From: Dehalococcoidia bacterium
GTDB lineage: Bacteria; Chloroflexota; Dehalococcoidia; Tepidiformales; Tepidiformaceae
Assembly: GCA_009841435.1 (NCBI GenBank)
Contig: VXLW01000015.1
Location: 62,001 to 126,000 of the forward strand
DNA: 64,000 nucleotides
Reading direction: 5' to 3'
The notes below the pieces were generated by a model. It searched no databases. It was given only the letters and a program-made list of their open reading frames with translations, and was not told where the DNA came from. Below, in pieces: positions 62,323 through 63,414 of the stretch (positions are counted from its first letter, which is position 1; each line of letters opens with the position of its first letter). The translations under genes and the position numbers were made by a program.

Positions 62323-63102
62323 TTACTCGTCCGGACGGACGGACACATCGGCGGCGAGCACCGTGAGGCGCTCGCCGCCTTCACGTTCAACGACAAGGGC
62401 GCCATCAGGCGCAATGTCCAGCGCGCGCGCTTCATAGGCGCCCTCAGGCTCCTCGACCGTGATCCGGCGCCCGAGCACGAGGCTGACGGCGCGGTACGCA
62501 TCGACGAGATCGCTCTCCGGAGCCGAGATGACGGTCTCGAGCTGATCGCAGATACGGGCCAGGAGCGACTCGCGGCCGACCTCGCGGCCAAGCTCGCGGG
62601 CGAGGCTGGTGGCGGTGTCGCGCAGGGCGGGGTCGGCGGTAGGGTCGGCGTTCACGTTGATGCCGATGCCGGCGTAGGCGGTAAGGCCCCCGGGGCCGGT
62701 CTCGCCGTCGATGAGCATGCCGCACAGCTTGCGCTCGCCGACCCAGATGTCGTTGGGCCACTTGATGCGTGCGTCGACGCCCTCGTGGGCGCAGGCGCGG
62801 CAGACGGCGAGGGGAACGGCGAGGGGGAGGCGGCCGTACACGTCGCGAGAGGGGCGCAGGATGAGGGTGAAGTAGAGGCTGCCGCCGGGCGGGCTGAAGA
62901 ACCCCCGGCCCCGGCGCCCACGACCTGCGGTCTGCGCCTCGGCGAGGATGAGGGTCCCGTGGGGCGCGCCCTCCGAGGCGGCAGTGCGGGCGAGGTCCAT
63001 CGTCGAGGGGGTTTCGAGGACGTAGCGGCAGTCGCGGCCCAGTTCGGCGGTGTGCAGGGCCGCGGCGAAGCGGTCGGTGTCGAAAGCTGGGAAGTCGGGC
63101 AT
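62323..63102 (-). CDS. birA: Biotin--[acetyl-CoA-carboxylase] ligase
   Basis: 259 residues from the ATG at 63102. An in-frame GTG at 63150 lies inside a strong terminator and is unlikely. It has the biotin-AMP loop GRGRRGRGFF, IKWPNDIW, the lysine-contact AYAGIGINVN and a C-terminal SH3-like domain. It lacks the N-terminal DNA-binding domain, so it is the enzyme-only type. It attaches biotin to carboxylase carrier proteins. The start has no obvious ribosome site. A terminator lies just upstream on the same strand. Confidence 0.9.
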   Translation of the reverse strand: MPDFPAFDTDRFAAALHTAELGRDCRYVLETPSTMDLARTAASEGAPHGTLILAEAQTAGRGRRGRGFFSPPGGSLYFTLILRPSRDVYGRLPLAVPLAVCRACAHEGVDARIKWPNDIWVGERKLCGMLIDGETGPGGLTAYAGIGINVNADPTADPALRDTATSLARELGREVGRESLLARICDQLETVISAPESDLVDAYRAVSLVLGRRITVEEPEGAYEARALDIAPDGALVVEREGGERLTVLAADVSVRPDE

Positions 63103-63124: not shown

Positions 63125-63162
63125 AAAAAGGGGCCTGGCGGCAATCGCACCGCTCAGGCCCC
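63125..63162 (-). terminator. Strong rho-independent terminator upstream of birA
   Basis: Minus strand: GGGGCCTG, a bulged A, GCGG, an eight-base loop, CCGC, CAGGCCCC, and then TTTTT. The 12-pair stem with one bulge plus a five-T run is the best terminator of the window. It ends the micro-ORF transcript 20 bases after its stop and lies just before birA. Confidence 0.88.
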
Positions 63163-63183
63163 GTTCGTAGCTCAACGCATGTT

Positions 63184-63240
63184 CTAGGAGGAGGTCACCT
63201 CCTGCGCTAGATGGGGTTGGCTACTACTGTGGTCGTCCAT
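63184..63240 (-). CDS. Micro-ORF (18 residues) with extended Shine-Dalgarno and own terminator
   Basis: The peptide is MDDHSSSQPHLAQEVTSS. The site AAGGAGGTGAT matches the full 16S rRNA 3' end consensus, which is far better than that of any other gene here, with the ATG at 63240 eight bases after GGAGG. An ATG at 63246 abuts the site and is unlikely. The coding part ends in AGGAGGTGACCTCCT, a near-perfect hairpin containing a second ribosome-binding sequence. A strong terminator follows. There is no signal peptide, Cys or maturation gene nearby. It could be a leader, a micro-protein or a small RNA. Function unknown. Confidence 0.55.
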   Translation of the reverse strand: MDDHSSSQPHLAQEVTSS

Positions 63241-63414
63241 GCGCATCACCTCCTTCCTTGCGACTAACGATAAACGTCCGCTCGCTCGGTGGCTAGAGGT
63301 GAAGGTTTGGGAGGTCCACGCTTCCGCGTGTGGGGGAGCACCGGTATTCTGAGCGGGCGCGCGGCGCCTGGCGCTCTGCGTCAAATCTATGCGTCGCGCA
63401 GAAAGGGGCGGACC

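Follow-up and report, generated by a model that had tools for sequence, protein, structure and literature searches.

Attenuator leaders of the trp/his type combine a strong Shine-Dalgarno sequence (SD), a short open reading frame (ORF), structured RNA and a terminator with a gene behind them, and dual-function small RNAs (sRNAs) of the SgrS/SR1 type are likewise small RNA genes with a terminator and a short ORF, the peptide being one of their products. A further system, ncl0160, was described as a cyanobacteria-wide small RNA with an ORF of 23-25 codons that is preceded by a ribosome-binding site (RBS) and stops mostly at TAA or TAG (PMC4734099). This ORF was considered likely to be translated and was read as a peptide gene; the account of ncl0160 in that report (Brenes-Alvarez et al. 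2016, PMC4734099) gives no function for it and describes it within cyanobacteria only.

The locus analysed here lies on the minus strand of the window, a stretch of 64,000 nucleotides from a Dehalococcoidia bacterium, and is placed between rpsB and birA. It shares all the listed parts with the trp/his leaders, the gene behind being birA in the window's family, but unlike them it lacks an antiterminator, a run of one kind of codon and a conserved peptide, and it stands alone in other lineages. Unlike the SgrS/SR1 type, its peptide sequence is not conserved and its ORF forms part of the main helix. The ORF in the window has 18 codons, compared with 23-25 in ncl0160.

All parts of the unit are on the minus strand. 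A -10 promoter element (TATCGT, 63267-63272), identified by consensus only, keeps its position in relatives, most of which also have TTGAC 17 nt 5' of it, and from this -10 consensus the transcript is predicted to start at about 63260. The SD of the unit, SD1 (AAGGAGGTGAT, 63245-63255), has an invariant core in the alignment and precedes the micro-ORF of 18 codons (63184-63240), which encodes the peptide MDDHSSSQPHLAQEVTSS and carries the motif AGGAGGTGACCTCCT at its end. The predicted fold and covariation within the family indicate a helix, P1, between a 5' strand in the ORF (GUAGCCAAC, 63216-63224) and a 3' strand past the stop codon (GUUGAGCUAC, 63167-63176). A predicted hairpin, P2 (UCUAG-AGGAGG-UGA-CCUCCU-CUAGA, 63183-63211), is the palindrome noted in the preliminary description of this DNA, and a second SD, SD2 (GAGGTG, 63196-63201), has its last base 9 nt ahead of the stop codon. 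The predicted intrinsic terminator (63125-63162) consists of a hairpin at 63162-63130 and TTTTT at 63129-63125; the stem before the T-run is thus present as previously described, with 13 pairs in the predicted fold where 12 had been given. The 18-codon minus-strand ORF, the 11-base SD, the palindrome at the ORF's end and the unit's own terminator were all borne out by the sequence and the fold.

SD1 has no other exact copy in the window, where six matches with at most one mismatch were found and 0.46 were expected, and the SD-spacer-ATG pattern AAGGAGGTGRTGNNNATG occurs once in the entire 2.7 Mb genome, in which the unit is a single copy. The predicted fold of the 161-nt region was better than that of shuffled sequences (z = -2.9). 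A promoter/terminator scanner called neither element at the window locus, because the terminator stem is interrupted and the -35 box is poor in the window's genus.

A DNA search of 60 relatives matched the stretch from the SD to the stop codon in 34 genomes, all of family f1 (the window's family, apparently that of Tepidiforma), and for this reason the unit is considered more than chance. The match was centred on the SD through the stop codon, and a homologous ORF was present at every locus fetched. The preliminary description had let its readings depend on whether peptide and stems are conserved in relatives, and conservation was found for the stems and the ORF. A covariance model, R1, built from 19 sequences of the window's family, matched 64 of 393 genomes of the class, some of them from families f17, f59, f53, f70, f2, f50, f23 and f26, and also a few genomes outside the class. 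Most examined matches are laid out alike: TTGAC-N17-TAnnnT is followed by a 5' leader of some 20 nt, then by AGGAAAGGAGGTGRTG-NNN-ATG, an ORF of 15-25 codons and a terminator; this layout was not seen in two R1 matches from other classes (L064 and L066). A GTDB-wide pattern scan added Dictyobacter, other Chloroflexi, cyanobacteria, and records titled 'Terrabacteria group ANGP1' and 'Bacillota (Centralia)', and Ktedonobacteria are among the lineages that carry the unit. One copy per genome was present wherever copies were counted, and a crude scan found a terminator-like hairpin in 89 of 102 loci. No Rfam 15 family matched the unit in a covariance-model search. Conservation in many genera refutes the explanation that the unit is chance or ordinary intergenic sequence, the probability of which is negligible. 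Comparative sequence analysis shows the unit to be a genuine gene for a structured RNA, widespread and with an ORF that is conserved and looks translated.

Matches of the pattern scan in Planctomycetes, Alistipes and others proved to be ordinary genes and were used as controls. Nine loci, mostly in Planctomycetota records (L091, L098, L107, L116, L126, L141, L151, L156 and L158), encode short Lys-rich proteins (MAKKRKVAKK...); these genes have a near-perfect SD and the promoter-to-SD spacing of the unit, and look like genes for ordinary short proteins.

In cyanobacteria, the strictly defined form of the unit was present in 39 of 244 genomes, once in each. These loci, like ncl0160, are small RNAs with an RBS and an ORF, which here has 23-24 codons and ends in TAA or TAG, and on the basis of this ORF description the cyanobacterial look-alike is probably ncl0160. 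A model built on the window's family only gave E-values of 0.005-0.013 for the best cyanobacterial loci and of 0.12-1.2 for other cyanobacterial loci, while unrelated genes with a strong SD scored 0.11 or worse. The best cyanobacterial loci score above every unrelated gene while the others lie within the noise, and homology between the cyanobacterial and Chloroflexota RNAs is rated as no more than probable.

The reading frame was then compared with the peptide it encodes. Frame 0 is open over 15-25 codons in all 52 distinct loci compared, whereas the same span is stopped in frame +1 in 41 and in frame +2 in 51 of them; these loci were chosen by DNA similarity or by the RNA model with the ORF disregarded, though they were located via the SD-ATG pattern. 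ORF lengths differ by whole codons only, while the distance from the stop codon to P1 varies freely. An excess of synonymous changes was sought and none was found, either in the window's family (0.34 in frame 0 versus 0.33 in frame +1) or in cyanobacteria (0.19 in frame 0 versus 0.19 and 0.31 in the other frames), in a test of low power, as the codons number only about 20 and RNA constraint acts on them too. Since the frame is kept in 52 of 52 loci and no synonymous excess was detected, translation appears to be selected and the peptide does not. The unit's existence and its translation are thus well supported by comparison.

The preliminary description had offered a micro-protein as one reading, and a functional micro-protein gene would account for the strong SD, for an ORF that is intact everywhere, and for C-termini, such as EVTSS and GAVL, that are constant within clades; a translated peptide was also inferred for ncl0160 in the published account of that RNA (PMC4734099). 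However, what peptides of different families have in common hardly goes beyond residues that RNA features impose, the constant positions fall on SD2, P1 and P2, and no synonymous excess accompanies the kept frame. A Pfam search of the 18-mer peptide, padded with two glycines, returned no match, which is a weak test for a peptide so short. The micro-protein reading was consequently not supported and is considered improbable. The simplest reading of the kept frame would be selection for ribosome passage: as no amino-acid selection is detectable, what is conserved would be a ribosome that initiates, crosses the ORF and terminates. Conserved translation of an unconserved peptide suggests an RNA that senses or controls ribosomes rather than a protein gene.

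The helix that such a ribosome would cross is P1, which pairs codons ~6-12 with the segment past the stop codon and shows compensatory changes. In the family alignment, 90.5% of the cells of the proposed structure are paired, and its covariation score was not reached in 500 shuffles and was lower in slid controls. Relatedness can inflate such a shuffle result, and independent clades therefore weigh more. In 71 of 102 loci, but in none of four unrelated short ORFs, a helix between the ORF and the post-stop segment exceeded shuffles (p ≤ 0.05). Cyanobacterial P1 has 38 cells with two-sided changes, against a shuffle mean of 12 and maximum of 26, a result biased somewhat in its favour by the choice of the 3' strand for best pairing. 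P1 is bulged in the window's genus, where the ungapped test does not detect it as significant. The inner stem of P2 is paired in 96% of cells in the family; in other families P2 is replaced, as judged by eye, by hairpins of different build.

Two other pairings were rejected. Sequestration of SD1 by ACCTCC in the ORF does not serve as a general switch, since only 12 of the 102 loci have anti-SD complementarity above shuffles (p ≤ 0.05) and cyanobacteria lack it, and a start-codon hairpin, P0 (GUGAU/AUCAC), showed one two-sided change and is lost in other families. The GCGC spacer ahead of the ATG (63241-63245, minus strand) may pair with GCGC at an Ala codon (63204-63207) in a possible pseudoknot (98.7% paired), for which a joint change from GCGC/GCGC to GUGC/GCAC was seen only in L010 and L029, both of one genus.

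SD2 adds a second ribosome-related feature near the end of the ORF. Among 106 distinct loci, 48, belonging to about eight lineages, have a GAGGTG that ends exactly 9 nt ahead of the stop codon. In the window, the GAGGTG of SD1 lies 6 nt from its end to the ATG, and that of SD2 lies 6 nt from its end to the last sense codon. With the stop codon in the A site, the P site holds the last sense codon; a ribosome at termination can therefore pair with SD2 in the geometry of initiation, and this geometric observation suggests that SD2 may delay termination. Cyanobacteria lack SD2, and in f17 and Dictyobacter its position is shifted. Reinitiation at SD2 was rejected, as no start codon was found by eye 5-9 nt past SD2 in the family.

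Of the three readings in the preliminary description, that of an sRNA has the best support, in the form of a structured RNA with translation as one of its conserved features. A trans-acting sRNA that pairs with mRNAs, for instance with their SDs via ACCUCC, while the ORF merely tunes it, would agree with a free-standing gene with a terminator and with the occurrence of ACCUCC or CACCUC in several families. We regard it as unlikely, because the anti-SD motif is missing in cyanobacteria, f70 and the ANGP1/Centralia group, where the frame and P1 persist, and a search for a common unpaired seed found none.

The conserved translation, the long-range helix and SD2 are best matched by a proposed ribosome-responsive switch, for which we infer the following mechanism. 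When ribosomes are available, SD1 would capture one almost unconditionally, and the captured ribosome would melt P1 and P2; at the stop codon, SD2 would pair with the anti-SD in initiation register and hold the ribosome. When initiation fails, P1 and P2 would fold. Since the fold would depend on ribosome passage, the RNA would register, by its state, the available capacity in ribosomes or initiation, and its candidate outputs are a target in trans, the stability of the RNA or readthrough of the terminator. The absence or shift of SD2 elsewhere and the weak P1 in the window's genus count against this reading. On the sequence evidence we give a probability of about 0.5 to the unit being a free-standing small RNA gene that responds to ribosomes, belongs to a widespread family not described before and would feed birA by readthrough in the window's family.

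A bolder version, which we put forward tentatively and hold to be distinctly less probable, is that of an ancient ribosome-sensor RNA common to Chloroflexota, Cyanobacteria and neighbouring phyla, in which the peptide is irrelevant, ribosomes enter by way of a near-perfect SD, SD2 holds the terminating ribosome in initiation register and the presence of that ribosome switches P1. If the homology holds, an RNA that is present across Chloroflexota and probably cyanobacteria and is absent from Rfam would be among the few so deep without a known function. Nostoc or Synechocystis, in which transcription of the likely homologue was reported, would allow the question of conserved translation versus unconserved peptide to be tested, and strong-SD micro-ORFs could, if the reading is true, act as ribosome sensors instead of peptide genes.

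The genes around the unit bear on its relation to birA (62323-63102, minus strand), which lies 3' of it and encodes a biotin-protein ligase without the repressor domain; it matches ligase domains only (TIGR00121, 1.4e-40; PF03099). birA is immediately 3' of the unit in 30 of 30 family loci, and also follows it in several other Dehalococcoidia families and at one more distant locus. This linkage agrees with the birA attenuator leader proposed in the preliminary description, in which passage of RNA polymerase through the terminator to birA would hinge on translation of the micro-ORF, and the terminator does sit between the micro-ORF and birA, about 22 nt ahead of the birA start. In f17, however, the gene downstream of the unit is convergent (glutamate-synthase-like, named by eye), which leaves the unit on its own, and in cyanobacteria it lies beside psbD-, pterin-dehydratase- and porin-like genes, among others (by eye). 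Moreover, P1 does not overlap the terminator, no codon kind common to all families was found when control codons were sought in the ORF, and no antiterminator exceeded shuffles across the loci (median p 0.35), in a crude search whose arms sometimes include P1. The association with birA thus stood in the window's family and other Dehalococcoidia, while the unit is not a classical attenuator nor, since it stands alone in f17, simply an attenuator of birA; a cis-acting leader is rated as rather improbable, although the constant birA linkage in Dehalococcoidia counts against a free-standing role and a cis role may exist.

Because neighbours differ in f17 and cyanobacteria, the unit is considered a gene in its own right, whose link to birA in most of the Dehalococcoidia examined was either acquired or retained. 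Readthrough past its terminator would probably feed birA in the window's family, and is the likely source of the birA transcript there because no room is left for a promoter of birA's own. In one Chloroflexi record (L161) the unit is directly 5' of a SmpB-like gene (named by eye). The gene rpsB is upstream of the unit in at least 21 of 30 family loci, and the reading of the unit as an rpsB leader was rejected, as rpsB is on the opposite strand and upstream in part of the loci only. The rpsB leader itself carries a hairpin-like sequence, GGTCCACGCTTCCGCGTGTGGGGGAGCACC, at 63307-63336 on the plus strand of the window, which may be a ribosomal-protein leader.
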